From assembly GCA_036941025.1 (NCBI GenBank), contig JAYMNP010000001.1, positions 3,122,501 to 3,186,500 of the forward strand: DNA of 64,000 nucleotides, written 5' to 3'. Below are positions 3,786-56,824 of the stretch, in pieces (positions within the stretch are counted from its first letter, which is position 1; each line of letters begins with the position of its first letter). The stretch comes from Lachnospiraceae bacterium JLR.KK002 (GTDB taxonomy: Bacteria > Bacillota > Clostridia > Lachnospirales > Lachnospiraceae). A program made the position numbers and the translations under genes. The notes below the pieces were generated by a model that made no database searches, was not told the origin of the DNA, and saw nothing but the letters and a program-made list of their open reading frames with translations.

Positions 3786-3825
3786 ATGCTCCTCCAGATC
3801 AGATTAACTGCTGTTTTTTTCATAT
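3679..3825. repeat. imperfect 36-bp tandem repeat at the neuA 5' end
   Basis: The segment ctcctgcgggccgg starts at 3717 and again at 3753. A weaker copy starts at 3789 and a partial copy lies at 3682-3700. The spacing is 36 bp, or 12 codons, so copy-number change would keep frame. The repeated element includes part of the genuine CTP-binding motif (ATTCCGGCCCGCAG), read in another frame in the extra copies. Confidence 0.75.
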
Positions 3826-4986
3826 ATCCTTCCAGGAAATATCATAAAAGGTCTTCTTTAAGTTTATCGGCTCTTTTTCCAGAAAACTTTTTATAATCCG
3901 GGCAATCTGTTCCGATGTGGTTCCGTCTCCATAGGGATTCCGGTATGTTCCGGTTTTCATTTCCAGAGCCTGCGTCATGGCTCTTTGGATGGACTGGCAG
4001 TCGGAACCACAGTTTATAATACTGTCTGCCATAATCCGGCCTTTCTGCCGGTCTCCGATATTGACGGTGGGAACCCCCAGAGCCGGAACTTCAATGATTC
4101 CGCTGGAAGAATTGCCCAGAACAAACCTGGCATATTTTACTGCGCTCAGATAGCGTTTCATACCAAGGGAGGCCACCAGTTTCATATTGGAATGCCCGGA
4201 TGTTTCCCGCTCCATATATGCGTTGATTGCTTCTCCTCCGGCGTCTGCATTGGCTTTTGTAATCAGATAAAACAGATTTGGCCGGGATTCCATGGCCTGA
4301 AACAGTTCTCTGACCTGCGTTTCAGCCTCTCCCGGCTCCAGTGTAACGGGATGGAACGTAACCACCGCATAATCTTTTTCTGCCGGAAATCCGGCCTGCT
4401 CTGCCAGTTCCGGCCGGCTCAGCAGTTTTTCCTGTAATATATTTTCCACACCCAGAGCTCCCACATTAAATACCCGCTCCGGTTCCTCCCCCATCTGGAT
4501 GATTCTCCTGCGGTATTCTTCCGTGGAAGCAAAGTGCAGATAACTCATTTTCGTCACCGCATGGCGGATATTATCATCAACAGCTCCCTGGGTCAGCTCG
4601 CCTCCATGAATATGAGCTATGGGTATCTGCTCATTCATGGCCGCTGTGCAAAAAGCCAGAATTTCTGTCCGGTCTCCCAGAACCACCAGTAAATCCGGTT
4701 TTTCTTCCTGAAAATACCGGCCGAATTCCAATAATGCACATGCCTGAGTTCGGGTAATATCATAGCTGGTATTTCCCTCTGCATTTATGGGAATTCTGGC
4801 TGAAATCTCTATTCCGTCCCTCTCAATTTCCCGGCAGGTATATCCCTGGCTTTCCGTCAGGTGGGAACCGGTAACCACCAGGCTGGTTTCCAGCTCCGGC
4901 AACGATTTCAGTTTCAGAATCAGCGGTTTTAAAATACCGTACTCTGCTCTGGTAGCAGTTATAATACAGACTTTCTTTTTTTTCAT
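3820..4986 (-). CDS. neuC: NeuC/LegG-type hydrolysing NDP-sugar 2-epimerase
   Basis: 388 aa, the usual length of UDP-GlcNAc 2-epimerases. ATRAEYG (11-17) is the N-terminal signature, followed by VTGSHLTE, GDRTEIL, HIHGGELTQGAVDDNIRHA and, late, GNSSSGIIEVPALG with TVNIGDRQKGR. The enzyme removes the nucleotide and inverts C2 to give ManNAc or, in the legionaminic route, 2,4-diacetamido-2,4,6-trideoxymannose, the substrate of NeuB. The gene sits 13 bp downstream of neuB. The legB/ptmE context favours the LegG reaction over sialic acid synthesis, but the motif set does not decide this. Confidence 0.85.
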   Translation of the reverse strand: MKKKKVCIITATRAEYGILKPLILKLKSLPELETSLVVTGSHLTESQGYTCREIERDGIEISARIPINAEGNTSYDITRTQACALLEFGRYFQEEKPDLLVVLGDRTEILAFCTAAMNEQIPIAHIHGGELTQGAVDDNIRHAVTKMSYLHFASTEEYRRRIIQMGEEPERVFNVGALGVENILQEKLLSRPELAEQAGFPAEKDYAVVTFHPVTLEPGEAETQVRELFQAMESRPNLFYLITKANADAGGEAINAYMERETSGHSNMKLVASLGMKRYLSAVKYARFVLGNSSSGIIEVPALGVPTVNIGDRQKGRIMADSIINCGSDCQSIQRAMTQALEMKTGTYRNPYGDGTTSEQIARIIKSFLEKEPINLKKTFYDISWKDI

Positions 4987-4999
4987 GGCAGGAATCCTT

Positions 5000-6010
5000 T
5001 TACTGTCTCAATATTTCTGTCCCAATCAGCTCATCTTCCGCGTAATCCCGGTCTGCCTTCCGTCCCATCAGTTCAGGCCAGCGCATGGGAGAAATTCCCG
5101 TTCCGGGCCTTTTGGCAGTCAGATTGTCCTCGCTGAGTGTTTCGCCTTTTTTTATCCGGCATCTGGCCACAATGCTTTTCCGGGCTACTGCCCGGTTCTT
5201 CTCCTCGGATTGCGAAGGTTCTTTTTTCCCGCTGCCCAGGGCCTGTTCCACATTGCGGACTGCTGTTACCATGGCCTTCAGTTCCTCCGGCTCCAGGCTG
5301 GCCCGGTGATCCGGCCCTTCCATGGTCCGATCCAGAGTAAAATGTTTCTCAATGACACAGGCCCCCAACGCCGCCGCTGCAATGGGAATCTCAATGCCCT
5401 TCGTATGATCTGAATAGCCCACAGGCAGATGAAATTCCCGTTCCATGGCTGCCATGGCTTTCAGATTCACATCTTCCATGGGCGTGGGATATTCCGTATT
5501 ACAGTGGAGCAGGGTAAGTTCCGGTGTGCCTGCCTTTTTCAGGCAGTCCACAGCCTGCCGTATTTCTTCCAGATCACACATGCCGGTAGACATAACCACC
5601 GGTTTTCCTGTACCGGCAATTTCCAGCAGATAAGGCAGGTTGGTGATTTCTCCGGAAGGCAGTTTCCAGAAATCCATATTCAGTTTATCCAGAAAATGAA
5701 TACTGTCCAAATCAAAGGGAGTGGACAGAAATCCTATTCCCTGCTGCCGGCAGTATTCGTTCAGTTCCAGAAAATCCTTCTGTGTCAGGGCCAGCTTTTT
5801 CAGCATTTCCAGCTGGCTTTCCTCTGTTCCGGTGGTCTGTTTCTGATATTCCGCTTTCTCAGCAAAAACGGACACCAGTTTTTCCGGAGAAAAGGTCTGG
5901 AATTTAATATAATCTGCGCCTGCCTCTCTGGCCGCCAGAACCATCTGTTTTGCTGTTTCCAGACTGCCGTTGTGATTGACGCCTGCTTCTGCAATTATGA
6001 TAATGCTCAT
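5000..6010 (-). CDS. neuB: NeuB/LegI-type nonulosonic acid synthase
   Basis: 336 aa. AEAGVNHNG (7-15) is the NeuB TIM-barrel signature, followed by KFQTF, STPFD, KLPSGE, STGM, HCNTEYP, GYSDHTKG and IEKHFTLDR. The last 60-70 residues form a SAF (antifreeze-like) domain (ARCRIKKGETLSEDNLTAKRPG). The enzyme condenses phosphoenolpyruvate with an N-acetylmannosamine-type sugar to make a nine-carbon acid. It lies between neuD (55 bp gap) and neuC. It is probably LegI given legB and ptmE nearby, but sialic acid synthesis cannot be excluded. The protein should be cytosolic and metal dependent. Confidence 0.88.
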   Translation of the reverse strand: MSIIIIAEAGVNHNGSLETAKQMVLAAREAGADYIKFQTFSPEKLVSVFAEKAEYQKQTTGTEESQLEMLKKLALTQKDFLELNEYCRQQGIGFLSTPFDLDSIHFLDKLNMDFWKLPSGEITNLPYLLEIAGTGKPVVMSTGMCDLEEIRQAVDCLKKAGTPELTLLHCNTEYPTPMEDVNLKAMAAMEREFHLPVGYSDHTKGIEIPIAAAALGACVIEKHFTLDRTMEGPDHRASLEPEELKAMVTAVRNVEQALGSGKKEPSQSEEKNRAVARKSIVARCRIKKGETLSEDNLTAKRPGTGISPMRWPELMGRKADRDYAEDELIGTEILRQ

Positions 6011-10348: not shown

Positions 10349-10389
10349 AAATTCCTCCAAATGATAGCTTCAAATCCCCGGCCTGACCT

Positions 10390-11160: not shown

Positions 11161-11204
11161 ATCTGCCGCTCTTTCATTGTGAATTCTTTTATCTGATGTT
11201 ACAC

Positions 11205-14889: not shown

Positions 14890-16017
14890 CTACAAAAGAA
14901 CAACCTCATTCTCCGTATGCATTTCTTCCAGCTGTTCTCTGATCCTTTCTCCATACAACATAGAACAGATTAAAACTGTACAATGCTGATCCTTCAAATA
15001 TTCAGGTGAATATACTGTATATCCATATATTTCCATTCCCTGTTTAATTTTATTATTATCTACAAATCCTTTTATATTACATTGTGATAAATTTGTAGTC
15101 GCCAGCAAACTCATCACATAAGAACCTGTTCCCCAGATCACCAGTTCTGTTTTTTCTTTTTTTAACGTTTCTATAACCGATTTTATCCGTTCTGCACGCT
15201 CCTCCTGGCGTCGAAAATAAGAACAAACCGCATTTTTTGTAGCAGTATCCTTCTCAGGCAATACTGTCTGATCTGCCTTACGGTAAACCTGTATCAAATC
15301 TATCGCATCATGTTTCTGTGCAATTCGTTCCATACCATGCAGGGCCATCAGATAATCCAGCGATTTTGCTGAAAAATAATTAATATGCTCCAGATTAAAA
15401 TGGTTGGGAATACTGGACATATCATCTTCGATTTCTGAATAATCAGGAACACTTATCATGAATACACCATTTTTTTTCAACATCTTTGCAACATTATCCA
15501 TCCCTTTTCCTGGAATCAGCAAATGCTCTGCCACCTCAAACAGGAAAATACAATCATACTTTTCTGTTTCTTCCGGTGCAACTTCAGAGTAAATACTTGC
15601 AACATACGCCTCAATTCCCGTTTCTCGTAAACGCCTCACACTTTCCTCAGAGGGATCTGCTCCCGTAATATTTGAATACCCATGCTGCTTTAATGCCACT
15701 TCAAATCGTCCGTTTCCTGCCCCTATCTCCAACATCACAGACTCTTTTGTAATATATTTCAATAAAAACTCTTCCACCATTTCAAAACGAAGACTGTTAT
15801 CATCTTTGCTGTCATCACCATAAAAATTAAAATTACTGTAATACCAGTCCAGATCTTCCATAGACGCCGCTGTATCTGCATAAACAAATCCACAGTTATC
15901 ACATACCACCACATTATAGGAATCCGGCAGACGATAATTTTCCGGAACTCTCATTTCAATTTTCCTGATCACCTCTGTATGATTCCCGCCGCATACAGGA
16001 CAAATTCTGTTTCCCAC
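14890..16017 (-). CDS. sugar C-methyltransferase-like SAM enzyme
   Basis: 375 aa. The N-terminal zinc-finger pairs CPVC (6-9) and CDNC (39-42) are followed by a class I SAM domain (MLEIGAGNGRFEVAL). A C-terminal Rossmann-like module starts at about residue 293 (VIWGTGSYVM...GFVDNN...GYTVYSPEYL). This three-part layout is that of NDP-sugar C-methyltransferases such as TylCIII. It is placed between an RfbF-like gene and the phosphoramidate kinase gene (2 bp gap), so it could methylate a deoxysugar or belong to the phosphoramidate cassette. The C-terminal module recurs in four other proteins here. Substrate unknown. Confidence 0.75.
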   Translation of the reverse strand: MGNRICPVCGGNHTEVIRKIEMRVPENYRLPDSYNVVVCDNCGFVYADTAASMEDLDWYYSNFNFYGDDSKDDNSLRFEMVEEFLLKYITKESVMLEIGAGNGRFEVALKQHGYSNITGADPSEESVRRLRETGIEAYVASIYSEVAPEETEKYDCIFLFEVAEHLLIPGKGMDNVAKMLKKNGVFMISVPDYSEIEDDMSSIPNHFNLEHINYFSAKSLDYLMALHGMERIAQKHDAIDLIQVYRKADQTVLPEKDTATKNAVCSYFRRQEERAERIKSVIETLKKEKTELVIWGTGSYVMSLLATTNLSQCNIKGFVDNNKIKQGMEIYGYTVYSPEYLKDQHCTVLICSMLYGERIREQLEEMHTENEVVLL

Positions 16018-16019
16018 AA

Positions 16020-16547
16020 TTACATACCTTCCTTACCTGATTTTTCAAAAAAACTCATTATCTTTTCTGCCTGTTTCTCCGGAGATATATTCCCGTCATT
16101 CTGAATTGTCAAATCCGGACATTTGGGTTCTTCCAGTCCTACCTGAAAACCTGCCAGCTCCTTTTCCTCTCCGGATTCATATGCACTGTACAGTCCTTTC
16201 TGGTCACGTTTTTTCAGCGTCTGCATGGTAACCTTTACATAAATCTCATGATAATTTTCGATATTTTCCCGATTCCATTCCCGTACACTGTCAAACATGG
16301 AAATTGTACAGCAAATTACATTTAATCCCTGACTCTGTAACATATGGCATAAACGTGAATATCGCATGGCACATTTTCTTCGATCTGCTTCCGAATATCC
16401 AAGATCATTCCCAAAAATCTCCCTCATAATATCCCCATCCAGAAATACTGTACCGGAATACTTCGTTTTTAATTTTTCATAAAATATCCTGCCAATAGTG
16501 GTTTTCCCTGCTCCTGAAAGTCCTGTAATCCAATAAACTGCTGCCAT
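16020..16547 (-). CDS. cytidine-diphosphoramidate kinase-like (CysC/Cj1415 type)
   Basis: 175 aa. The APS-kinase fold has a P-loop GLSGAGKT (9-16) and LDGD (36-39), then GNDLGYSEADR. The following segment (SQGLNVICCTISMFDSVREWNRENI) departs from true APS kinases and resembles C. jejuni Cj1415, which phosphorylates CDP-phosphoramidate at the ribose 3' hydroxyl. The flanking genes are homologs of Cj1416, Cj1417 and Cj1418, which supports this over a sulfate-activation role; no ATP sulfurylase is nearby. Known: the Cj1415 reaction. Inferred: the same reaction here. Confidence 0.8.
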   Translation of the reverse strand: MAAVYWITGLSGAGKTTIGRIFYEKLKTKYSGTVFLDGDIMREIFGNDLGYSEADRRKCAMRYSRLCHMLQSQGLNVICCTISMFDSVREWNRENIENYHEIYVKVTMQTLKKRDQKGLYSAYESGEEKELAGFQVGLEEPKCPDLTIQNDGNISPEKQAEKIMSFFEKSGKEGM

Positions 16548-16570
16548 TTCCTGCCCTTTCCTGCCTGATA

Positions 16571-17350
16571 CTATTTTATCTTTTTCTCCACAATCTTTAA
16601 ATCATCACAGTCATCAATTTCAAACCAGCCACGCTGAATATGTACCGCTTTCAGTTTATAATTCTCATCAACAAGGCCCTGCAGCAAATCTGTCATATAC
16701 ATCTTATCATAATTCCGTTCTGTTCTCCAAAGCTGTTCTCCGGCTTCTGATCGTCTTCTGGCCTCTGCTGCAAGATTAAGTACATTCTTTAACCCCTGTC
16801 CCCTGAATCGCATCAGGCCAATGTACTGAGACTGTACATGTTTCAGTTCTGATGTCCTCTGGCCGATTTCTGTAAGATAATCATTCTCATCAAACATGAG
16901 AGACTCCGCATCATCCAGTGGATTATCACATCTTTCTGACCAGTATTCATACCAGCCATCATCCACAATCACCGACATATCATCAGATGTTTCCAGAATT
17001 TTCCTCAGGACTTTTTCGCTGTATATGATATCTCCATACGAAATAAGAATATCATCCTCCCGTTCCATCAGATCCTTTGCACACATGAGAGAGCATACCA
17101 TATTCGTTGTTTCAAATTCTTCATTAATTATAAAATGAATGCCTGTTTTCTGCAGCTTTTCTCTTAACACATCACTTCTATAGCCAGCAACAATCGTAAT
17201 ATCTTCTTCTTTCATACCACAAGAGTACATGGTATCAAGCTGCCGCTCTATAATGCTTCTTCCATTTACCTCAACCATACATTTCGGACAATGCTCCGTC
17301 AACGGACGCAGCCTGCTTCCCTGCCCCGCTGCCAGTATAATTACTTTCAT
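16571..17350 (-). CDS. CTP:phosphoglutamine cytidylyltransferase-like (Cj1416 type)
   Basis: 259 aa from ATG 17350 (AGAGGA upstream); a longer reading would overlap the previous gene. The signature AAGQGSRLRPLTEHCPKCMVEV starts at residue 7, followed by NTP_transferase features: NMVCSLMCA, ISYGDIIYSEKVL, VDDGWYEYW and a C-terminal WFEIDDCDDLKI. It resembles LicC-type cytidylyltransferases and C. jejuni Cj1416, which joins CMP to L-glutamine phosphate. The amidotransferase gene directly upstream and the glutamine kinase gene in the same operon make the phosphoglutamine reaction the best guess. Confidence 0.8.
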   Translation of the reverse strand: MKVIILAAGQGSRLRPLTEHCPKCMVEVNGRSIIERQLDTMYSCGMKEEDITIVAGYRSDVLREKLQKTGIHFIINEEFETTNMVCSLMCAKDLMEREDDILISYGDIIYSEKVLRKILETSDDMSVIVDDGWYEYWSERCDNPLDDAESLMFDENDYLTEIGQRTSELKHVQSQYIGLMRFRGQGLKNVLNLAAEARRRSEAGEQLWRTERNYDKMYMTDLLQGLVDENYKLKAVHIQRGWFEIDDCDDLKIVEKKIK

Positions 17351-17351
17351 C

Positions 17352-17960
17352 TCATTTCCTCTCTTTTTCAAATAAATCCTGTAATCGTCTTATATCCTCC
17401 ATACAAAATTCTGACTCTCTTTCAGGATGCCACATAACCGCCAGAATGCCTTTTTCCCGGTCCGTAACTGCCTCAATCACTCCATCTTCTGAAATTGCCA
17501 GAACTTCCAGAGGACGCTTCACCTGAAAACATGCCTGATTATGATAACTGTTTACGGTAAATTCCCCCAGACTGCCCTGAACCTTATGGCGAACTGCCAC
17601 ATGCCCACTGATTTCCTCAAGTCTACAGTCATAATAATCCAGAATCACCTGCATTCCACGGCAAAAACCAAAAACAGGTACGTTCCCTTTCAATGCAATG
17701 TCCAGTAATTTTTTCTCTGTCTCATCACGTTCAGGCGCCTGTCCGCCATACCTCACCAGGCTGTTCCCACCGGTCAGAACAAGACCGGCAGGCTTCAACT
17801 GATACATCATTTCTTCTGCTACTGATAAAACATTTGGCAGCGGAATCGGAAGAAATCCGCACTTTTCCAGAAAAACAGGAATGCACTGATCTGCACAGTC
17901 TCTCCGTTCTCCATAACTTTCCACGACCTCTACCCGCTGCGTATATAAAACGATTTTCAT
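17352..17960 (-). CDS. class I amidotransferase-like gamma-glutamyl-CDP-amidate hydrolase (Cj1417 type)
   Basis: 202 aa. This peptidase C26/class I glutamine amidotransferase domain has nucleophile C100 in FGFCRGMQVI and the His-Glu pair H178/E180 in MWHPERE. In C. jejuni, Cj1417 cleaves gamma-glutamyl-CDP-amidate to glutamate and CDP-phosphoramidate. No synthetase subunit is encoded next to it, which fits a stand-alone hydrolase. The stop codon lies 2 bp before the start of the cytidylyltransferase gene, so the two are probably co-translated. Generic gamma-Glu-GABA hydrolase activity is the alternative if context is ignored. Confidence 0.8.
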   Translation of the reverse strand: MKIVLYTQRVEVVESYGERRDCADQCIPVFLEKCGFLPIPLPNVLSVAEEMMYQLKPAGLVLTGGNSLVRYGGQAPERDETEKKLLDIALKGNVPVFGFCRGMQVILDYYDCRLEEISGHVAVRHKVQGSLGEFTVNSYHNQACFQVKRPLEVLAISEDGVIEAVTDREKGILAVMWHPERESEFCMEDIRRLQDLFEKERK

Positions 17961-17970
17961 TACAGTTTCC

Positions 17971-18720
17971 TCACTTTACCTGCGCCATCCATATCCTGGT
18001 AGTATAAGGAATTTTAATATATTCCTGCCCTTTCCCTTCTACCACTTCTCTTATTCTCTCATTGATATACTGAAATTTTTCTTTTGACTGCCTCTGAACT
18101 GTCCCATGGGATTTCCAGCCTTCAATAAAATCTTCTGACAGAACTTCATGTATAACGGTTCCTTCCACAAAAACCACTTCCCGGAAGTTTCCGCTCTCAT
18201 TAATCACCCCCGTCTGATCTTCTCTTCTGGTCCCATAACCGTAATTTTCAATCTCCTGCATTAATACAGCCTCAATTTCCTTTTGCAACGGGTCATTCAA
18301 ATCCCTGTGATTCCACATACAGGCAAACCATCCATTATCCTTTAAAATTCTTTTTGCCTCCACCAGTGCTTTCTGCCTGTCACACACATTAAAGGAAGAT
18401 CCAAACGTCACCATATCAAATTTTCCGGTTTCCATACCGGTATGTTCTCCAACGCCTTCAAACCATCTGACATTCTCAAATTTTTTCGTTCTCTCTATTC
18501 CGTTTGCCCGCATGGCGTCATTTGGCTCCACAGCAAATACTTCCAGGCCATATTCTGCCAGTTTTATGGTCAGATGAGCTGCTCCGGCTCCAACATCACA
18601 AACCAGATCACCTTTCCGCACTCCTGCTGTCTGTAACATTTTATCAATAGCTGTCTGTGCGTAATCCGGCCTTTTCAAATATGCTGCTGCCAATTCTGTA
18701 TAATCCCATTCTGTTTTCAT
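17971..18720 (-). CDS. class I SAM methyltransferase of the phosphoramidate cassette
   Basis: 249 aa. Motif I is DVGAGAAHLTIKL (42-54), with EPNDAMRANG at motif II, FDMVTFGSSFN, and WFACMWNHRDL at motif IV. This is a Methyltransf_11-like small-molecule methylase. Its position, 10 bp before the amidohydrolase-type gene and 35 bp after the glutamine kinase gene, parallels Cj1419/Cj1420, proposed to methylate the phosphoramidate. Whether it methylates O of the phosphoramidate or something else is inference. Confidence 0.72.
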   Translation of the reverse strand: MKTEWDYTELAAAYLKRPDYAQTAIDKMLQTAGVRKGDLVCDVGAGAAHLTIKLAEYGLEVFAVEPNDAMRANGIERTKKFENVRWFEGVGEHTGMETGKFDMVTFGSSFNVCDRQKALVEAKRILKDNGWFACMWNHRDLNDPLQKEIEAVLMQEIENYGYGTRREDQTGVINESGNFREVVFVEGTVIHEVLSEDFIEGWKSHGTVQRQSKEKFQYINERIREVVEGKGQEYIKIPYTTRIWMAQVK

Positions 18721-18755
18721 TCTGATTCTCCTTTCAAATTATAAATAAGCAATTA

Positions 18756-21095
18756 CTATCTGTTTCTTAAAATCCTGACATTTTTCGCCAATGCATTGAT
18801 TTCCAGTATTTCAGCCTTTCTGTACTGTTCAAAACGCTTCGTACCAACGCCTACCACCGCTGGAATCCCCAGTTCTCCAGCCCTTATAGCCATATGGGAA
18901 TTTGCCCCTCCATACTTTGTGATAAACCCTCTGATTCCATGTGCAAAAATCCAGTCATAGCCCGGATCAGCGCTCTGAATGAATACTATTTTGTCCTTTA
19001 TTTCTTTACTGTCAACAGAGCCTTCCAGCACCAACGTCTCACCAGCCACACATCCCAGCGTAATATAATTAGGCTCTGTATCCGGATAATAAAAAGACCA
19101 GACATCCTCTGCGTTCAGGATAAGAGGCGGCAGCGTCACAGATTTTGTCAGCTCATATTCTTCCCTGCCTTTTTTTGCGGCTCTCTTTAAATTCATTTCC
19201 GTGTCCTTTGTGGACATATACAGTTCTCTGACTGCCTGTATGTTCATATAGGCGCATTCTTCCCTGGAAATACCATACTTTTCTCCGATTTTTCCCAGTA
19301 TCTGTATCGCTTTACTCAGGTTCCTGGTAAAAACAAATTTTCCATACTCCCTTCCCTCTATTACTCTTTTTATAAAATCCATAAGTTCCAGAATGTTATT
19401 GTTCAGGCCATTCTCAGTCAGTGCATCGGTGAGACCCTGCATCTGCTTCAGAGAAAGGCGAAATACCTCCCCGGAAGATACCTTCTCTTCACTGTCCTCC
19501 TTATTCCAGTCAAAATAAAGTTCCGGAGCCTCATCATAGCGGGGAGAAGTAATATCATATGTTCCTGGTCGAAGATGTCCATATTTTTTAAGAAAACTAT
19601 GTCTGGACAGTTCTTTAAAATCTCTGTTCATATTAGAGCTGACCGTTTCAACCCCTGCCATAAAAAGTTCATAATCTTTCTCTGAAATAATCTTTCTATT
19701 TACCAGTGACTGCAAAAGCTGCACTGCAATAAACGCCGCTCTTGCCAGTCCTGCGAAAGGCAGTGTTCCATATCGCTTGCAGTCTTCCAGTAACCAGTAT
19801 ATTTTCTCCAAATCTCCCAGATCACTGGACATTACTTCTTCATAGCGCTTTTCCAGAACTCTGATTTTTTCATAATCTTTCCGCCAGAGCCCTGTTTCAT
19901 GGTTAATAATCCGATTAGTAATGTTCCTCAGAGAAGTTATAACTGCTTCCGTTTCCTCTGATGTGAAACCATACTCTGCCAATATCCGGATGCGTTCCGG
20001 CAAATCCAGTGTATAGCAGGAAAATACAATATCAAATTCAACTTTATCATGTTTCGACGGTTCTTTTTCCAGTCGCTCCAGATAATAATTTACCAGTTTT
20101 TCACTTATCATTTCATCCAGTTCTGCCGGAATAAAAGAATTAAAACTGACCCGAACATCAATATAGGGCAACCCACAGAAATCAACCATAAGTGGAAAGC
20201 TCCTGAGATTTCTGTATCCATAATTATCTCTCTGATACGCCCATATATTGTCGGTAATAATTTCACGGTATAATGACATTGCCAGGGGCTTTGGACGTAT
20301 TCCTATCATTTCAGCAGGGTTCCAGTCCGGCATGACGCCATAGACTGTCTTTTTTCCACATAAAAAGGGTCGGGGAGACTGCTCCATTTTAATTTTTCTT
20401 TCAATCCTGGCAAGTTCTTTTTCCTGTCTTTCACAATCCGCCGTCGCTCCGTTTAAGCATAGTGATCTTACCTGAAAAATATACAATATATCTTCTTCTG
20501 TTACCGCAAATTCCACATCCAGATTATTTTGCCCAAACAAATTTTCCAGTTCTTCCAATGTGATATATAAATTTGCAGGAAATCCTTTTTCCGCTCCCGT
20601 TGCTTCCTTTTTGAACCTGTAAAGTAATTTACTCTCTTTTCCACTGCCTGATGTGACAGCTGATGTGGAACCTGTCTCATCATAGTTAATCACATAATAA
20701 TTTCCAAGTGTACTTGGCTCAGCTGTAAATGCAACCCCACAATATTTCACATTTTGCAGCATGGGCTGAACCAGAATCTGGTTACCTCCATTATCATCAT
20801 CAAAAGAAGCAATCACTCTGTTTACAGCCTGTACAAAATTCTCATAGCATGTTACATTTCCCACTGATTCAAATTTTCCGGCCTGAGACTCTGAAGCCGT
20901 GTCTTCATTTAAGGCAGAACTTCTGACGATCAGAGGACTTACTGAAAATTCTTCTATAATTTTCTCCCACAGTGTTTCCTGTCTTTTCTCATTCCATTCT
21001 TTCACTGTAAAAGAAAGCTGAGGCAGAACCTGTGCCCTGGAAAGTTTTCCATATATTCTCTGTAATGTTTCAGCTTTTGTTCCTAACTCCAACAT
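18756..21095 (-). CDS. L-glutamine kinase-like PPDK/PEP-synthase-family enzyme (Cj1418 type)
   Basis: 779 aa from ATG 21095, with GAGGG upstream and just past the previous stop. Longer reading frames would overlap that gene by 77 bp. The N-terminal ATP-grasp-like PPDK domain shows VRSSALNEDTASESQAGKFES and ILVQPML. The middle is variable and helical. The C-terminal swivelling domain ends in GGANSHMAIRAGELGIPAVVG with phosphocarrier His734. There is no C-terminal PEP/pyruvate barrel. C. jejuni Cj1418 has this layout and phosphorylates the glutamine amide nitrogen. A rifampin phosphotransferase has the same architecture, but the neighbours argue for glutamine kinase. Confidence 0.8.
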   Translation of the reverse strand: MLELGTKAETLQRIYGKLSRAQVLPQLSFTVKEWNEKRQETLWEKIIEEFSVSPLIVRSSALNEDTASESQAGKFESVGNVTCYENFVQAVNRVIASFDDDNGGNQILVQPMLQNVKYCGVAFTAEPSTLGNYYVINYDETGSTSAVTSGSGKESKLLYRFKKEATGAEKGFPANLYITLEELENLFGQNNLDVEFAVTEEDILYIFQVRSLCLNGATADCERQEKELARIERKIKMEQSPRPFLCGKKTVYGVMPDWNPAEMIGIRPKPLAMSLYREIITDNIWAYQRDNYGYRNLRSFPLMVDFCGLPYIDVRVSFNSFIPAELDEMISEKLVNYYLERLEKEPSKHDKVEFDIVFSCYTLDLPERIRILAEYGFTSEETEAVITSLRNITNRIINHETGLWRKDYEKIRVLEKRYEEVMSSDLGDLEKIYWLLEDCKRYGTLPFAGLARAAFIAVQLLQSLVNRKIISEKDYELFMAGVETVSSNMNRDFKELSRHSFLKKYGHLRPGTYDITSPRYDEAPELYFDWNKEDSEEKVSSGEVFRLSLKQMQGLTDALTENGLNNNILELMDFIKRVIEGREYGKFVFTRNLSKAIQILGKIGEKYGISREECAYMNIQAVRELYMSTKDTEMNLKRAAKKGREEYELTKSVTLPPLILNAEDVWSFYYPDTEPNYITLGCVAGETLVLEGSVDSKEIKDKIVFIQSADPGYDWIFAHGIRGFITKYGGANSHMAIRAGELGIPAVVGVGTKRFEQYRKAEILEINALAKNVRILRNR

Positions 21096-21099
21096 TGAC

Positions 21100-22728
21100 T
21101 TATCCCTCGTCTGCAACCGGTCTGATATAATCATAGTATTCTGTTTCTTCTTTGTATCCACGCATATATTCTGCATACATCTTCTTTATAAACTCGTTTA
21201 TATCATATTTATCTTCCGGTCTTCCATATTCATCAAGAACCTCCTGAGCAATTGAGGCAAATTTAAAATCTTTCTGCAATATCTGCTCCAGAGCTGCTTC
21301 ATCAAATTCTGTAAACTCCGGTACATCATTTTCATATCCGTAGGCCTTTTTAAATTTAGAATAAATCATATTAAGCCTTGCTTCATCCCATACTGTCAGT
21401 GCCTCTGAAAAATTCTTTTCTCCAACTGTTGTTGTATCATTGCCTGTAATATATTTCACACCATCCGCTGTAAACACCGGAAAATAAACTTCATATCCGT
21501 TTGTTGTGGTAGACGACAGAATATCACTGTATGGAATTTTCATCCAATCACACAGACTTCTCATTGTTTCTTCCGAACGGAATTTTAAATCCTCAAAACG
21601 AATTACCTTTACGCAGTCAATACCTTTACGCTTTTCCAGATTCAAACCCATCTCACATTTTATGGTATGAATAAAATCTGCATCCTTTGTGAGAATAATA
21701 TTATCTTTCCCTTTTATAATCATCCTGCGAACATAAGAATAACATTGCTGCACGGGTTCCCGGATAATGATCAGATTTTCTATCCTGGAAAACTCATCCT
21801 TATGAAAATATTCATATGTATCAGCCACATCATAATTTGTTTTATGCATATGATAAAAAAGCCAATAAGAAGTGTCTCTTTTCTTTCTTCCCAGACAATT
21901 ATTATATGCTGCCGCATAAATTTTCATCATATCTCCAAAAGAAGTAAGTGATATCTTCCGTCCTGCAAACTGTATCCGAAGCTGACGCATAAAATCGTCC
22001 GGATGTATCAGAACATCATCCATAAACTGGCCTTTTTCGTCCATAATTAATGCAAATTTATTATTTTTCACACAACTCAAATGGCCGTATGCTGAATGAA
22101 AATATCCAAACATCTGTGCTCCCATTTCAATCAGTAATTCTGTACCTTCCAGATATTTCAACCTGTGTTCGTAAACGAGTCCAAATACATGGGTACTGTA
22201 TGGCAATGTTAAAATATCCGGATGACCGTCTAAAAGCTGTTCCAGATAAAAACTGCCTGAATTTGACATGTGATTAAAAATAACCACATTCTGTATTTCT
22301 TCTGCACAAATTAATTCTTCCCGATTCTCAACAATGTCCATATCATTCACATTCGCCAGGTCAAGCAAATAAAGATACAGAGGAATCCGCAACTCTGAAT
22401 TGCTGTCATATACTCCATATTTTTTAAGATTTCTGATCATATTGGTAAATCCGTCTCTGTTCCATGTGCCAACTCTCTTCTCCACATCAATACAAACCAG
22501 ATATACAGCATTCGGATATCTCTCTACTGCTTCTTCCAGAGAATAAACCGGTAAATCCTGATATTTCTGTCTGCACTTCTCCGGTGCATCATCACAGAAA
22601 CACACCGGATTACATCCCATTTTTGTAAATATCCGATACGCAATTTCACCCCAAAAACCAGCCCCATACAAACACATTTCCCGTTCTTTCGCCTGATTAA
22701 TCGTATCTGTTATACTTTTATGCCACAT
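21100..22728 (-). CDS. sulfotransferase-fold protein, candidate phosphoramidate transferase
   Basis: 542 aa from ATG 22728 (AAGGAG 10 nt upstream). A Rossmann-like module opens the protein (CLYGAGFWGEIAYRIF, residues 19-34). A sulfotransferase-like domain follows: IFNHMSNSGSFYLEQLL (150-166) sits where the 5'-phosphosulfate loop should be, and IIIREPVQQCYSYVRR (320-335) matches the 3'-phosphate-binding R...S strand-helix. That domain recognises nucleotides bearing a 3' phosphate. The cassette's CysC-like kinase would create such a nucleotide from CDP-phosphoramidate, so this protein may transfer the phosphoramidate to a glycan. An ordinary PAPS sulfotransferase is the alternative. Confidence 0.65.
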   Translation of the reverse strand: MWHKSITDTINQAKEREMCLYGAGFWGEIAYRIFTKMGCNPVCFCDDAPEKCRQKYQDLPVYSLEEAVERYPNAVYLVCIDVEKRVGTWNRDGFTNMIRNLKKYGVYDSNSELRIPLYLYLLDLANVNDMDIVENREELICAEEIQNVVIFNHMSNSGSFYLEQLLDGHPDILTLPYSTHVFGLVYEHRLKYLEGTELLIEMGAQMFGYFHSAYGHLSCVKNNKFALIMDEKGQFMDDVLIHPDDFMRQLRIQFAGRKISLTSFGDMMKIYAAAYNNCLGRKKRDTSYWLFYHMHKTNYDVADTYEYFHKDEFSRIENLIIIREPVQQCYSYVRRMIIKGKDNIILTKDADFIHTIKCEMGLNLEKRKGIDCVKVIRFEDLKFRSEETMRSLCDWMKIPYSDILSSTTTNGYEVYFPVFTADGVKYITGNDTTTVGEKNFSEALTVWDEARLNMIYSKFKKAYGYENDVPEFTEFDEAALEQILQKDFKFASIAQEVLDEYGRPEDKYDINEFIKKMYAEYMRGYKEETEYYDYIRPVADEG

Positions 22729-36607: not shown

Positions 36608-38329
36608 CTATATTCCCCCAAGCTGTTCATGAAGCCCCATTAAATGCAGTCCACATGATTCTGCCATTTTCAAAAGATGTATTTTCTGTTCCTCTTCCAG
36701 AGTAAATTCATCTATTGCCTCCATAAAACTCCAGAGTAATTTGTCCGTCATATTCAAAAAGTCATCCGGCTTATAACTGTACCTTCTTGCTAACTCAAAT
36801 AAAAACGATGCCTTACCAATGGCCAATGCCAGTCCGGCTTCTGCACCCTGGCAATCTTCTTCCATAAAATAATGTATAAAATCTATATATCCTCTAAATT
36901 GTTTCAATCTCGACTCATATGTGGCGTAAGTAGGGAGCTTTGAATTTTTTACAAGCCCTTCTTCTCCTGCCTGCAACTCCAGCCCTTTTTTCCTGCCCAT
37001 CTCTACTTCTTCTGAAATTAATGATTCGTTTTCAGAAATCAATGTAACCGGATCCTCCAAATAATCGCCACGTCTGCTCAGTATTGCGCACCACCATTCA
37101 TGGGGATAACAGGCAAAAAAATAATTATCAGAAAATTCATTTAATTTATGTAAATCCTCCAGAATAAAATCCTCTCTCCTTACTATGAGACCTGACAAAT
37201 AATTCTGTCGAAGAAATTCTGCGCTAAAGGCTTCCAGCCCCTTTTTTTTATGCAGGTTTTCTTTTATATCTGCGCATTGGAACTCTGTCCGGGCTCTTAT
37301 AAGACCTGCTTCCGGGTGTTTACTTAAAAGTGCCAGATAATGTTCCACCGCCTCTATCACTACATCATCTTCATCTGACACAAATAAAACATATTTTCCA
37401 TGGGCCATTTCTACTGTATAAATCCAGTTATCAGATGCTTTTAATCTTATTCCATGATCAAAATAATGAATTCTGGCATCCGTTATCCTGCCAACTTCAT
37501 CATATTCTTCCTGATAATAATCATTACAGTTTTTAGAAATTGCAATTTCAATTTCTGCATCATAGCACATTCTTAATAAATTTTCCAGACGTTTTAAAAC
37601 CATATGTCCCCGATTTGCTGTTGGAATACCGATTGTCAGCAATACATTTTTTGTATTACGCCCTTCCGGAGTCAAACGATACTGGTGCTCCTGGTCTATA
37701 ATGTTATCTAATTTTTCTATGGTATCTTTATTTCCAAGCAAAATACGCGGTAAATAGACAGAAGTATTCTGATGAAAATAATCCTGAAATTCCAATACAT
37801 CCGAAAATAATCTGATATTATTCATATAATCTGCCAGTTCCGGAATCTTGAAAAAAGACATACATCTGTTTCTGTCATGGCAAATTGCATAAATTTTTCG
37901 ATTCCTGGCAGCAGCCAGTACCGGTTTTTCTTTATTCCAGTCCCAGTCCAGTTCCAGCACTGCCCCACTGAATTCCATTTCCTGAAATACCGGTCTCAAA
38001 TCTGTTTTTTCCAAATCCGGAACAGAAAAAATCCCCCGAAAAATCTCCAGTTCTTTATCAAAAATGTAATATTCCCCATCTCTGTATGGAATAAAATCTA
38101 AAATACATTCCTCATAAATATCCTTACTTTTTTCTGCAAATGGATGAAAGGCCTTCCTGAATTTTTCATCATTTTCTGCCATATAACAATTATAAATTGT
38201 CTCTATCAGCCATTCCTGTTCATAGCCTCTCATATAGAGCAAAGCAAAAGACTCTAACGCTTCATCATATTTTCCTTCCTCAAATCTTTCACAGGCATAT
38301 TCCATCAATTCTCTGTTCTCAAGTGCCAT
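36608..38329 (-). CDS. glycosyltransferase with N-terminal TPR-like region
   Basis: 573 aa from ATG 38329, which has AGGAAGG upstream. The N-terminal 70 residues are TPR-like helices (LMEYACERFEEGKYDEALESF). A GT-A domain occupies about residues 225-420 with TIGIPTANRGHMVLKRLE, IEIAISKN and the DxD-containing VLFVSDEDDVV. The C-terminus is helical. It is a close paralog of the protein at 46415-48091, suggesting parallel functions in the two operons. Its start lies 11 bp inside the end of the Maf gene. The acceptor could be flagellin. Confidence 0.8.
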   Translation of the reverse strand: MALENRELMEYACERFEEGKYDEALESFALLYMRGYEQEWLIETIYNCYMAENDEKFRKAFHPFAEKSKDIYEECILDFIPYRDGEYYIFDKELEIFRGIFSVPDLEKTDLRPVFQEMEFSGAVLELDWDWNKEKPVLAAARNRKIYAICHDRNRCMSFFKIPELADYMNNIRLFSDVLEFQDYFHQNTSVYLPRILLGNKDTIEKLDNIIDQEHQYRLTPEGRNTKNVLLTIGIPTANRGHMVLKRLENLLRMCYDAEIEIAISKNCNDYYQEEYDEVGRITDARIHYFDHGIRLKASDNWIYTVEMAHGKYVLFVSDEDDVVIEAVEHYLALLSKHPEAGLIRARTEFQCADIKENLHKKKGLEAFSAEFLRQNYLSGLIVRREDFILEDLHKLNEFSDNYFFACYPHEWWCAILSRRGDYLEDPVTLISENESLISEEVEMGRKKGLELQAGEEGLVKNSKLPTYATYESRLKQFRGYIDFIHYFMEEDCQGAEAGLALAIGKASFLFELARRYSYKPDDFLNMTDKLLWSFMEAIDEFTLEEEQKIHLLKMAESCGLHLMGLHEQLGGI

Positions 38330-40250
38330 TTTTATTTCCTTCCTGCCTCTCATTATCTTTTACCGGATGTTCTTCCGCATATTTTACAATGGTCTGCTCT
38401 GCAATATCTGATATTTCATCTGCTGCTACTGTCACTCCGTACAACAGGACTTTTCCCTGCTCTGCCACATCCATGAGCTCCCCCGCTTTATCTGCCTGCA
38501 TCTGATATGCAATGGGTCTTAAAGTATAATTCAGTCCCTCAAGACTGTCCATCACGGTCCGCGCCATATAGTCAGATTCCATATAACGGTTTACCTTTGA
38601 TATCTTCTTCAATACTTTTGCCAGTTCCTGATCTGACACATTCTTCTTCCTGGACAGCTTCTCCAGACGCTCATAATAACCCAGCCCCTCTTTGGCTTTT
38701 TTCTTTACCTCCTCAAGTTTCTTCAGAGATCCCCCAAAACAATTTAAAACCTTTTCGCGGTCATCTCCCACAAATAACTTTTTACAGCGATCAATATGCC
38801 ATTTTACGTTAAATTCCCTGACACAATATTTCTGAATTGCCTTTTTCAGTGTCATAATTTTAGTACCGCGAATCAGAGCTCCGCCTTCTGTGGCATCCAC
38901 CACAGTAACGTGATCCCATTTTTCAAAATGATCTTCAAACCATCGTCGGTATAAATCAAAATCCAGCCTGGTCAGAACTTTACCCCCATCTACAGACTCA
39001 ACTTCAAAATATTCTCCGCTGTCTGCATCAATCTGATCCATCTCATCCTGAAAAGTTCCATCGGCATGGGTCCTGTTCCCTGTCATTGCCAGGTCCTGTC
39101 CTACCAGAATCACTGTCCCCGTTCCCATGTTCAGGCCAAGGGCATATGCTGAAGTCGCCACGGAACCGCCAGTTACAAGATACGGAATCACTCTTGTTGA
39201 CTGCTCACTTTCTTTCTTTTTAATATCCCCTGTAAGATAATCCTCCAGAGCAGAATCTGCGCCATAAAAAAATTTTTTCCCTTTATGGTATGTCATGGGC
39301 CCGGTAGATACCGCTGTCATGGCAACCATAGGCACTCTTGATATATCTTTATGCTGAAACAGGATGTCCGGTTTTAATCCATCTATAATTACAAACAGAT
39401 CCGGAATAATCCCTGCATTTAAAAGGGGTTTCACAGCTGTATCTGTGGCAATAATACAGGCCTTTCCCACGGCTTTTTTCAAATCCATAATATTTTTATT
39501 CAGGGACGGACCTGCAGAAACTATGATAACCGGAACCTCTTTTGGCAGCATTCCATACAAAGCCCTGACACTATATCCTTCATATAAATAATGTAAATTA
39601 ACAAATACATTTACCGCCCGTACATTTGCATAACGTACTCTTGTATTCCATGCCACATGTATATCATACACATACTTTTTAAGATTTGTAATGAATTTTT
39701 CTGTCTTTTCCTGAAACAGGTCGTGATAATTTCCTGAAATATAATACCGCAACAACGTCATATTATCATAGGAAATGAATAATCTGAAATATGATTCTAT
39801 TTCCTCCTCATTGATCCCCTCTACTATAATCCCCACCGGAATATCCGGCTGAAAAATAAAGGATAAATCCACTTCCTGCATGGCTCTGCGAAAGACCTCA
39901 AAAGATGGCTCATAAATCAGTATATTTGACGTTTTCGGGGCTCGCTCCATAATCTGCCGTATATGCTCGCCATTAGAAACACCCAGGATAACAACAGGTG
40001 CATACTCATCTATTTTTCCCTGATTTTGGAACCAACGCTCAATGACTGCTGAAGGTGCGTATTTTCCATTGAGATACAATGTCTTTCCATCCTGTACCAC
40101 CTTCAGGATAGTTGTATTCTCCATCAGACTTTCTTCCGCTATTACATCAAAATTTCTCTTTTTCCGTTTTACATTTTCCAGTATAGCTGCCCATACCGGA
40201 TATTTCCCTCTCAACGCCTCCATATTTTTTTTATAAATCAGTTCGTTCAT
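38319..40250 (-). CDS. maf: Maf/DUF115 motility-associated flagellin glycosyltransferase
   Basis: 643 aa. The DUF115 core shows VPVIIVSAGPSLNKNIMDLKKA, IIATDTAVKPLLNAGIIPDLFVIIDG and YLVTGGSVATSAYALGLNMG, then LVGQDLAMTG. Maf proteins transfer nonulosonic acids (pseudaminic or legionaminic/sialic type) directly to flagellin serine or threonine, independent of a lipid carrier. The NeuB/NeuC-type genes further along this operon would supply the donor. It is cytosolic by inspection. It lies next to the small helical protein gene, with a 4-bp overlap (ATGA). Confidence 0.88.
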   Translation of the reverse strand: MNELIYKKNMEALRGKYPVWAAILENVKRKKRNFDVIAEESLMENTTILKVVQDGKTLYLNGKYAPSAVIERWFQNQGKIDEYAPVVILGVSNGEHIRQIMERAPKTSNILIYEPSFEVFRRAMQEVDLSFIFQPDIPVGIIVEGINEEEIESYFRLFISYDNMTLLRYYISGNYHDLFQEKTEKFITNLKKYVYDIHVAWNTRVRYANVRAVNVFVNLHYLYEGYSVRALYGMLPKEVPVIIVSAGPSLNKNIMDLKKAVGKACIIATDTAVKPLLNAGIIPDLFVIIDGLKPDILFQHKDISRVPMVAMTAVSTGPMTYHKGKKFFYGADSALEDYLTGDIKKKESEQSTRVIPYLVTGGSVATSAYALGLNMGTGTVILVGQDLAMTGNRTHADGTFQDEMDQIDADSGEYFEVESVDGGKVLTRLDFDLYRRWFEDHFEKWDHVTVVDATEGGALIRGTKIMTLKKAIQKYCVREFNVKWHIDRCKKLFVGDDREKVLNCFGGSLKKLEEVKKKAKEGLGYYERLEKLSRKKNVSDQELAKVLKKISKVNRYMESDYMARTVMDSLEGLNYTLRPIAYQMQADKAGELMDVAEQGKVLLYGVTVAADEISDIAEQTIVKYAEEHPVKDNERQEGNKNGT

Positions 40251-52406: not shown

Positions 52407-53519
52407 TTACTGTAACAGTGACAATACACCCTGGTTGGACTGGTTAGCCTGTGCAAGCATGGACTGGCCTGCCTGTGCAAGAATGTTATTCTTGCTGTAT
52501 TCAACCATTTCAGATGCCATATCTGTATCACGGATACGGGATTCTGCTGCCTGAGTATTCTCTGCCACGTTATCCAGGTTGGCAATTGTATGCTCAAGTC
52601 TGTTCTGTAATGCTCCGAGTGCAGATCTCTGGCTGGATACATTGTTGATTGCATTCTGAATCATTGTAATGGTTCCGGTTGCCTGCTGGTAATCTCTTAC
52701 GTTCGGTGTGCTAACTGTTGTAGCCGGTTTGCTTGCAACTTTAAAGATCTGAGCTGCACACATTGCCAGATTCTTAGCACATGTTCTTACATCTCCAGAA
52801 TTTGTAGTAATTGTTCCATTCTGGGTCTTATAATATGCCACACCTTTTGAATTAGCAGAATAAATCGCTCCAACCTGTACGGTACATGCTGCAAGAGCCC
52901 CGATAGATCCTCTTAAAGCTGCAGAATTATTTGTACCAACTTTCTGATTCTTAACAACTTCATTGGTTGTCAGATAACCAGACATTGCTCCTACCTGAGT
53001 AGGTTTGATTCCGATTGCTGCTGCATTCATTGCTGCAATATTGATGGTAATCTTCTGATTCTGGTTTGCTCCTACCTGAAGGTTCTTTCCGGTAAAGCTG
53101 CCATCTAACAGAGACTGTTTATTGAACTGTGTGGTTGCGGAAATACGGTCAAGCTCTTCTACCAGTGCGCTTAACTCCTGATTGATTGCGTCACGGTCAA
53201 CGTTCTGGTTGGTGTCATTTGCTCCCTGTACTGCCAGTTCATTCATTCTCTGAAGAATGCTGTGAGCTTCATTCAGCGCGCCTTCTGCTGTCTGAATCAA
53301 TGATACGCCATCCTGTGCGTTAGAGGATGCTTTGTTCAGTCCTCTGATCTGGCTTCTCATCTTCTCGGAAATCTTTAATCCTGCTGCATCATCGCCTGCA
53401 CGGTTGATTCTGTATCCGGATGATAATTTCTCAGATGATTTTGCCTGTGTGCTTGTGGTAACGCCTAACTGACGGTTCGCGTTCATTGCGGTAAGATTGT
53501 GCTGTACTACCATTGCCAT
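52407..53519 (-). CDS. fliC: flagellin, copy 1
   Basis: 370 aa from ATG 53519 (MAMVVQHNLTAMNANRQLG), with GGAGG 9 nt upstream. The N-terminal D0/D1 helix region is standard: SSGYRINRAGDDAAGLKISE and LQRMNELAVQGANDTN. The C-terminal D0 ends EMVEYSKNNILAQAGQSMLAQANQ. The core of about 80 residues (from 190 to 275) differs from copy 2 and has three cysteines, rare in flagellins. DNA outside the core is almost identical to copy 2. Exported by the flagellar system; the Ser/Thr-rich core is the probable glycosylation region. Confidence 0.95.
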   Translation of the reverse strand: MAMVVQHNLTAMNANRQLGVTTSTQAKSSEKLSSGYRINRAGDDAAGLKISEKMRSQIRGLNKASSNAQDGVSLIQTAEGALNEAHSILQRMNELAVQGANDTNQNVDRDAINQELSALVEELDRISATTQFNKQSLLDGSFTGKNLQVGANQNQKITINIAAMNAAAIGIKPTQVGAMSGYLTTNEVVKNQKVGTNNSAALRGSIGALAACTVQVGAIYSANSKGVAYYKTQNGTITTNSGDVRTCAKNLAMCAAQIFKVASKPATTVSTPNVRDYQQATGTITMIQNAINNVSSQRSALGALQNRLEHTIANLDNVAENTQAAESRIRDTDMASEMVEYSKNNILAQAGQSMLAQANQSNQGVLSLLQ

Positions 53520-53542
53520 AATGTTTTCCTCCTTGAACTTAA

Positions 53543-53560
53543 TGCAGCTTCCATGCTGCA
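53543..53560 (-). promoter_or_regulatory. CsrA-site-like hairpin in flagellin 1 leader
   Basis: TGCAGC-AUGGAA-GCUGCA hairpin with GGA in the loop, followed 9 nt later by AAGGAGGA. CsrA binding here and at the ribosome site would block translation, as known for Bacillus hag. Confidence 0.65.
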
Positions 53561-53574
53561 TGTGATATTATAGT

Positions 53575-53612
53575 CATCTGCCCGTCAGATAACCATTTCT
53601 GACAGGCAGAAT
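53575..53612 (-). terminator. stem-loop between the two flagellin genes
   Basis: CTGCCTGTCAGA pairs with TCTGACGGGCAG around AATGGTTA. There is no U-tract after it on the minus strand, so it may stabilise or process the RNA rather than end it. No sigma28 promoter was found between the genes, so copy 1 may depend on read-through. Confidence 0.5.
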
Positions 53613-53646
53613 AACAAACTTCTTAACTTTTAATAAGATTATACTA

Positions 53647-54810: not shown

Positions 54811-54834
54811 AATGTTTTCCTCCTTGAATTTAAC

Positions 54835-54850
54835 GCAGCTTCCATGCTGC
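54835..54850 (-). promoter_or_regulatory. CsrA-site-like hairpin in flagellin 2 leader
   Basis: GCAGC-AUGGAA-GCUGC with GGA in the loop, 10 nt before AAGGAGGA. Same layout as in the other flagellin and in units A and B. Confidence 0.65.
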
Positions 54851-55010
54851 ATGTGATATTTTTATAATCATCTGCCTGTATATAATACAGATGACCATTC
54901 TGCCGAAGCAGTTTTTCGTTCTGTTCCCTGAGGCTTCTGAACAGCCTTCCGGAAACTTTATGCAACTCTTTCTTCAGTTGTAACAGTTGCACTTCTGACT
55001 TACATTATTT

Positions 55011-56773: not shown

Positions 56774-56824
56774 AATTTTCACCTCTTTTCGGATATCAGT
56801 TTTTCCATCTGTACATAACACAAT

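Follow-up and report, generated by a model that had tools for sequence, protein, structure and literature searches.

A predicted phosphoramidate operon within a flagellar island of a Lachnospiraceae bacterium, with a candidate sulfotransferase-fold transferase

We analyzed 64,000 nucleotides of the genome of Lachnospiraceae bacterium JLR.KK002 (hereafter the window; positions 3,122,501-3,186,500 of contig 1, genome size 4.28 Mb) and identified a tight operon of 6 open reading frames (ORFs) on the minus strand at 16020-22728. The intergenic gaps within the operon are 4, 35, 10, 1, and 23 bases, and the next gene, a methyltransferase in which no BLAST similarity to the methyltransferases discussed below was found, follows 2 bases on (Table 1). 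Start codons were chosen at 22728 for the transferase (542 residues) and at 21095 for the kinase (779 residues), matching the lengths of database proteins. A first-pass annotation had described these 6 genes as a phosphoramidate pathway related to the O-methyl phosphoramidate (MeOPN) genes of Campylobacter jejuni, and the ORFs, the gaps, and the matches of 5 of the genes to MeOPN genes confirmed that description.

Table 1. Coordinates of the operon and of neighboring features in the window; identities are best BLASTP values against C. jejuni GP013
Feature	Position	Strand	Basis
Candidate phosphoramidate transferase, 542 aa	21100..22728	-	Rossmann domain ~8-121 and predicted sulfotransferase fold ~138-470
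PPDK-type kinase, 779 aa, Cj1418 (glutamine kinase) homologue, swivel His734	18756..21095	-	43% identity to Cj1418; NF004508; tree
S-adenosylmethionine-dependent methyltransferase, 249 aa, Cj1419-type, proposed phosphoramidate O-methyltransferase	17971..18720	-	BLASTP
Class I glutamine amidotransferase (GATase)-fold hydrolase, 202 aa, Cj1417 homologue (C100, H178, E180)	17352..17960	-	31% identity to Cj1417
Cytidylyltransferase, 259 aa, Cj1416 homologue	16571..17350	-	40% identity to Cj1416
CysC-like kinase, 175 aa, Cj1415 (CDP-amidate 3'-kinase) homologue	16020..16547	-	41% identity to Cj1415; tree; PRK05541
Methyltransferase, 375 aa, possibly a sugar C-methyltransferase	14890..16017	-	Methyltransf_23; weak sub-cut-off Methyltransf_14
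NeuC and NeuB, nonulosonic acid synthesis	3820..6010	-	Both over NCBIfam equivalog cut-offs
PseD/Maf-like flagellin glycosyltransferase	38319..40250	-	NF050051 FlagModPseD E 1.4e-29, below cut-off; MptE-like, Maf_flag10_N
Two flagellins	52407..54852	-	Flagellin_N and Flagellin_C
FliD filament cap	57741..59675	-	FliD_N and FliD_C

In C. jejuni, according to the available part of PMC11800397, Cj1415-Cj1418 make cytidine diphosphate (CDP)-phosphoramidate 3'-phosphate from glutamine, ATP, and CTP, and the phosphoramidate group is attached to the capsule; Cj1421 and Cj1422 are MeOPN transferases (PMC11800397 and PMC3907429, available parts). The locus used for comparison came from strain GP013 (L076), reached via a primer-length pattern, with 14 kb taken around its matches to the Cj1417 model (328.8 bits, cut-off 250) and the Cj1418 model (1174.9 bits, cut-off 501). 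Cj numbers were set by position and family and are in part our presumption; a 380-residue frame upstream is a DUF2972 protein, which its position and homologues led us to take as the MeOPN transferase family. The 5 matching genes share 31-43% identity with their C. jejuni counterparts and lie in nearly the same order: 2 methyltransferases, PPDK-type kinase, GATase, nucleotidyltransferase, and CysC in C. jejuni, and kinase, methyltransferase, GATase, nucleotidyltransferase, and CysC in the window. The kinase, GATase-fold hydrolase, cytidylyltransferase, and CysC-like 3'-kinase thus keep the same relative order, and the window methyltransferase is homologous to both C. jejuni methyltransferases (42% to the one adjoining the kinase and 31% to the other). 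In contrast to C. jejuni, the host here is Gram-positive, a single methyltransferase rather than 2 is placed after the kinase, the transferase belongs to a different sequence family, and the neighbors are flagellin rather than capsule genes.

The window kinase, with PPDK_N and swivel His domains as in Cj1418, scored 983 bits on NF004508 (cut-off 501). In a tree of 20 rows, which excluded the exceptionally long L119 protein, it fell in a clade (support 97/96) with Cj1418, 2 Azospirillum sequences, and the kinases of 3 other genomes, G568, G402, and G547, remote from rifampin phosphotransferase (Rph) and phosphoenolpyruvate synthase (PpsA); this position speaks against both of the latter identities, the first of which, named beforehand as an outcome that would undo the assignment, we rejected. 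His734 is correctly numbered for the 779-residue start (His761 of the 806-residue ORF) and lies in GGxNSHMAIR, and the swivel His is kept in 16 of the 17 aligned kinases of the family; the sequence of the 17th (G547) is truncated ahead of this residue. The nearest named relative (96%) belongs to Eubacterium sp. 14-2, which we take to be a member of Lachnospiraceae.

The kinase family is large, with 7204 proteins at E<=0.001 among 7995 scored. The NF004508 cut-off is exceeded in 10 of the 299 genomes of the family sample, and since 6 of these 10 Lachnospiraceae genomes carry a separate kinase clade, the model is not specific to the pathway. In the 14-20 kb retrieved around these 6 kinases, nothing related to the other pathway genes was found. 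Of the 6, 3 are fused to a C-terminal GATase (L064:8788-11835, L065:7813-10887, and L066:3198-6233), without any CysC or nucleotidyltransferase relative found close by, and 3 stand alone (L067:8441-10864, L068:8001-10331, and L069:8750-11119), that of L067 adjoining housekeeping genes (bactofilin and ribosome recycling factor).

Cys100, His178, and Glu180 of the GATase are present in all 9 aligned rows, including that of the window, so that the family and triad given in the first-pass annotation stand; the amidotransferase role does not, as the NCBIfam name of the Cj1417 model indicates that this protein should instead hydrolyse gamma-glutamyl-CDP-amidate. In the phylum sample of 299 genomes, none of the 298 besides that of the window scored above 70.1 bits on the Cj1417 equivalog model NF045546; as a census of the pathway this model was discarded, with GATases matched in 284 of the 299 genomes, none over the cut-off, and no pathway count to be had from it. 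The cytidylyltransferase is conserved in position, and its place in a small nucleotidyltransferase tree was not resolved. Methyltransferases homologous to that of the window (E about 1e-25 or better) occur in each of the 5 clusters with a Cj1415-clade CysC, namely those of the window, C. jejuni, A. ramasamyi, Azospirillum TSA2s, and Smac51. They split into a Cj1419-like group (window and TSA2s, 55% identical) and a Cj1420-like group (A. ramasamyi and Smac51), with one of each in C. jejuni; these numbers we presume from position. The available part of PMC11800397 leaves Cj1419 and Cj1420 without assigned function, as knockouts gave no apparent capsule change. Redundancy of the 2 proteins would explain this, and with its single methyltransferase the window would allow the methylation step to be tested cleanly.

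The CysC-like kinase is the single PF01583 protein of the genome. We placed it in a tree of 31 CysC domains (window, C. jejuni, 3 plasmid clusters, 2 other Lachnospiraceae clusters, 18 class genomes with PF01583 scores of 140-235 bits, and 6 plasmid records annotated as adenosine 5'-phosphosulfate [APS] kinase, CysN, or NodQ), where it formed one clade with Cj1415, the 2 Azospirillum sequences, and Smac51 (100/97) against the other 26 domains. The proposed comparison with true APS kinases therefore came out on the side of Cj1415, and profile scores agreed: the window and C. jejuni proteins pass PRK05541 (188.8 and 290.6 bits, cut-off 127) and fall below apsK TIGR00455 (124.1 and 126.9 bits, cut-off 138.7). 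No match to Sat-type ATP sulfurylase (PF01747) was found in the genome, and the best scores of its 2 PF01507 proteins, 33.7 bits for CysD (cut-off 195) and 52.7 bits for CysH-type models (cut-off 154), lay far below the thresholds. A supply of 3'-phosphoadenosine 5'-phosphosulfate (PAPS) was thus not found in a search that covered Sat and CysD and did not cover CysN.

The sixth gene, called a candidate transferase at first, is backed in that role by a predicted sulfotransferase fold over about residues 138-470 of a protein with an N-terminal Rossmann domain, a fold that fits a 3'-phosphorylated donor. Alignments were built from 46 of its 75 homologues and from 19 DUF2972 proteins out of 120 listed (685 found). 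It carries R-E-P-x5-S, and R-x-P-x5-S we take to be the 3'-phosphate-binding motif of PAPS sulfotransferases. Of the 5 clusters whose CysC belongs to the Cj1415 clade, 4 (window, C. jejuni, A. ramasamyi, and Azospirillum TSA2s) have a candidate transferase that carries the motif in a looser form (2 hydrophobic residues, R, D/E/N/H, P, 5 residues, S/T); a stricter form missed the Azospirillum proteins, and both patterns were drawn up with the sequences already in view. Among 52 window genes, the transferase is the only one with the motif. Across 14 loci, it occurred in 4 of 210 ORFs (at least 200 residues, overlapping frames included), each a transferase candidate or a member of the sulfotransferase family; in the 126 ORFs of 9 Lachnospiraceae loci only the homologue of the window transferase had it, and in the 84 ORFs of 5 other loci only the C. 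jejuni protein and 2 A. ramasamyi proteins. In A. ramasamyi, motif and CysC domain share one 861-residue frame. The Azospirillum case rests on the motif, since the Pfam sulfotransferase match of the N-terminal region is weak (E 0.081) and its sequence search of the PDB found nothing useful. The window protein resembles PAPS-dependent sulfotransferases (CurM domain 4gbm and tyrosylprotein sulfotransferases) in predicted fold and motif but is fused to a Rossmann domain, lies among CDP-amidate genes, and has a 5' loop reading SNSG, where tyrosylprotein sulfotransferases have RSG.

The surroundings bear out the flagellin island that had been proposed, with FliS, FlgN, and FlaG encoded in addition to the 2 flagellins, FliD, the PseD/Maf-like protein, NeuB, and NeuC of Table 1. 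No Wzx/Wzy or capsule exporter was recognized among the 50 window ORFs scanned. The window matches known flagellin glycosylation islands with Maf/PseD and nonulosonic acid genes in combining flagellins, FliD, a PseD/Maf-like protein, NeuB, and NeuC; among the literature matches listed, no such island was described as having a phosphoramidate module. RfbH-, RfbF-, and RfbG-like genes at 7135-8472 and 10390-12257, of which RfbF and RfbG were named by family and neighborhood, suggest possible CDP-3,6-dideoxyhexose synthesis near NeuB and NeuC, so that the acceptor could be of either type, CDP-dideoxyhexose or nonulosonate. A BCCT transporter and LicC-like nucleotidyltransferase, choline-kinase-like, and sulfatase-fold genes stand in a row at 41133-46338 as a possible choline-phosphate branch.

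Kinase and flagellin genes are linked in 3 genera. In the window, the kinase lies about 31 kb from the 2 flagellins; in G547, from another genus and the only other of 397 genomes with the transferase (E <= 1e-20), the kinase, transferase, NeuC, NeuB, flagellin, FlgN-like, FliS, and FliD genes occupy one contig within 29 kb; and in G402, the kinase, CysC, GATase, and nucleotidyltransferase lie 28 kb from a run of 5 flagellin ORFs. Rough probabilities of such proximity arising by chance are 6%, 8%, and 2%; the distances and locus counts behind them were chosen post hoc. G568, also of this kinase clade, is broken into contigs on which flagellin linkage cannot be judged. About 100 kb around the kinase of G577, which belongs to the separate clade, yielded no flagellin. 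The PseD/Maf query, run without a positive control, had no match in 4 relatives.

From these results, we consider it probable that the operon makes a nucleotide phosphoramidate that is used to decorate a glycan of the flagellar filament. The assignment to the pathway is strong at the level of sequence homology, and flagellin as the target, which gene context recurring in 2 other genera points to, is likely but unproven. Going by homology to the C. jejuni enzymes, the PPDK-like kinase would phosphorylate the amide nitrogen of glutamine, the cytidylyltransferase would couple the phosphorylated glutamine to CMP, the GATase-fold hydrolase would remove glutamate to give CDP-NH2, and the CysC-like kinase would phosphorylate the 3'-OH to yield 3'-phospho-CDP-NH2; the order of the last 3 steps is partly our assumption. 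We newly propose that the 542-residue protein would bind the 3'-phosphate through R-E-P-x5-S and move the phosphoramidate onto a sugar hydroxyl, and the methyltransferase would make the O-methyl ester before or after transfer. The acceptor would be a flagellin glycan built in the cytoplasm, of nonulosonate and/or CDP-dideoxyhexose type, because the module lies among flagellin genes and no capsule exporter or Wzx/Wzy was recognized.

The donor would be laid out like PAPS, with a 3'-phosphate and an activated 5' group, and a sulfotransferase fold would accordingly be expected to read the 3'-phosphate; the transferase mechanism is in this sense a well-founded prediction from modeling. A reason for the 3'-kinase step would follow from the predicted fold, which also makes the transferases testable. 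We give even chances to a broader proposal, a second PAPS-like transfer chemistry in which a CysC-type 3'-kinase makes 3'-phospho-CDP-amidate and sulfotransferase-fold transferases, recruited on more than one occasion (DUF2972 in Campylobacter, the 542-residue family in Lachnospiraceae, and others in Azospirillum), spend it, with methyl-phosphoramidate marking the flagellum here. We know of no other phosphoramidate on a protein-linked glycan, and this one, if true, would be the first. Flagellin is an immune target, and a P-N group there, if true, matters for contact between gut microbes and host and for flagellum-binding phages.

Several observations weigh against parts of this proposal. The window GATase scored 115.9 bits on NF045546, below the cut-off of 250, and the CysC proteins of G568 and G402 fall outside the Cj1415 clade, that of G568 failing PRK05541 (108.0 bits) and passing apsK (144.9 bits). 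No relative of the 542-residue transferase was found beside the G568 and G402 modules, and no CysC was found in G547, where the search had no positive control, the assembly is 79% complete, and the contig ends inside the kinase gene. G474, from the genus of the window, has a flagellin/FliD locus, but searches of this genome found neither kinase nor transferase nor CysC (the CysC search again without a positive control), because of which the module is, judged by gene content, a variable part of these flagellar islands. In Smac51, which has all 5 pathway genes, none of the 8 proteins checked of 22 annotated neighbors had the motif. The window transferase has no PF11186 (DUF2972) match. A sulfotransferase fold is also predicted for Campylobacter DUF2972, with weak Foldseek matches (best E 5.5e-3). 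The link that we draw between the 2 families is one of shared predicted fold only, because their direct profile comparison failed (hhalign probability 5%) and the DUF2972 profile found no sulfotransferase in the PDB by sequence.

Among other explanations, 3'-phospho-CDP-NH2 may be made as proposed and placed on something other than flagellin, such as a polysaccharide of the cell wall, a secreted one, or a small molecule. The choline-kinase-like, LicC-like, BCCT, and sulfatase-fold genes count in favor of such an acceptor and also weigh against flagellin, being typical of phosphate-type wall-polymer decorations; related clusters in Azospirillum and Pseudohalocynthiibacter lie among sugar or polysaccharide genes, and the C. 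jejuni target is the capsule (PMC11800397, available part). However, the flagellar and PseD/Maf-like genes of the window, the 50 ORFs without a recognized Wzx/Wzy or capsule exporter, and the recurrence of kinase-flagellin linkage in 2 other genera make this explanation unlikely.

It is distinctly improbable that the kinase acts on another amide or amine and that the operon makes a different CDP-linked phosphoramidate. The size of the kinase family and the separate clade, with its GATase fusions and no pathway partners found nearby, leave some room for this, but the window kinase groups with Cj1418 and is accompanied by the whole Cj1415-Cj1417 set. Ordinary sulfate chemistry, with CysC as an APS kinase, the 542-residue protein as a PAPS-dependent sulfotransferase, and the PPDK-like gene unrelated, would suit both folds, the PF01583 fold being shared with APS kinases, and the NCBIfam family name of the kinase, "adenylyl-sulfate kinase." We rejected it as scarcely credible, given a genome with no Sat found and no convincing CysD, a CysC below the apsK cut-off and in the Cj1415 clade, and 3 more genes of the Cj1415-Cj1418 set adjoining it.

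Full or partial gene sets were also identified on Azospirillum, deltaproteobacterial, Vibrio, and Rhodobacterales plasmids, and together with the set described here they point to a much wider spread of the pathway. A 2022 review terms the glutamine kinase "C. jejuni-specific" (PMC9561416, available part), a label that the kinases found beyond Campylobacter speak against, and orthologues of cj1416-1418 are reported in 13 of 30 Campylobacter strains (PMC3907429, available part). Among the open-access literature matches listed, a scope with subscription papers mostly outside it, we found none that describes phosphoramidate genes within the flagellar island of a Gram-positive bacterium; in the available part of a paper on the Clostridium botulinum flagellar island (PMC2674064), the single occurrence of "phosphoramidate" is within the title of a Campylobacter reference.

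Plasmids of Vibrio alfacsensis (L055:8353-12763) and Pseudohalocynthiibacter (L057:7176-11793) carry kinase, GATase, and nucleotidyltransferase genes, with no CysC relative found in either cluster; perhaps such clusters work with CDP-NH2 that carries no 3'-phosphate. Their kinases are extended at the N terminus by a stretch that by eye resembles a nucleotidyltransferase and has no Pfam match. The G568 and G402 modules contain 2 extra genes between CysC and GATase (L061:10398-11703 and L062:6399-7660), one formyltransferase-like and one without a Pfam match. AAA-ATPase-like/PD-(D/E)XK genes lie near the modules at 8564-10360 and 55067-56821 in the window (PF09820, PF08011), at G568:C88:33040-34806, and at G402:C1:3095105-3096796, there between flagellins. 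Two radical SAM/SPASM proteins are encoded inside the flagellar island of the window at 33982-35364 and 48152-49180.

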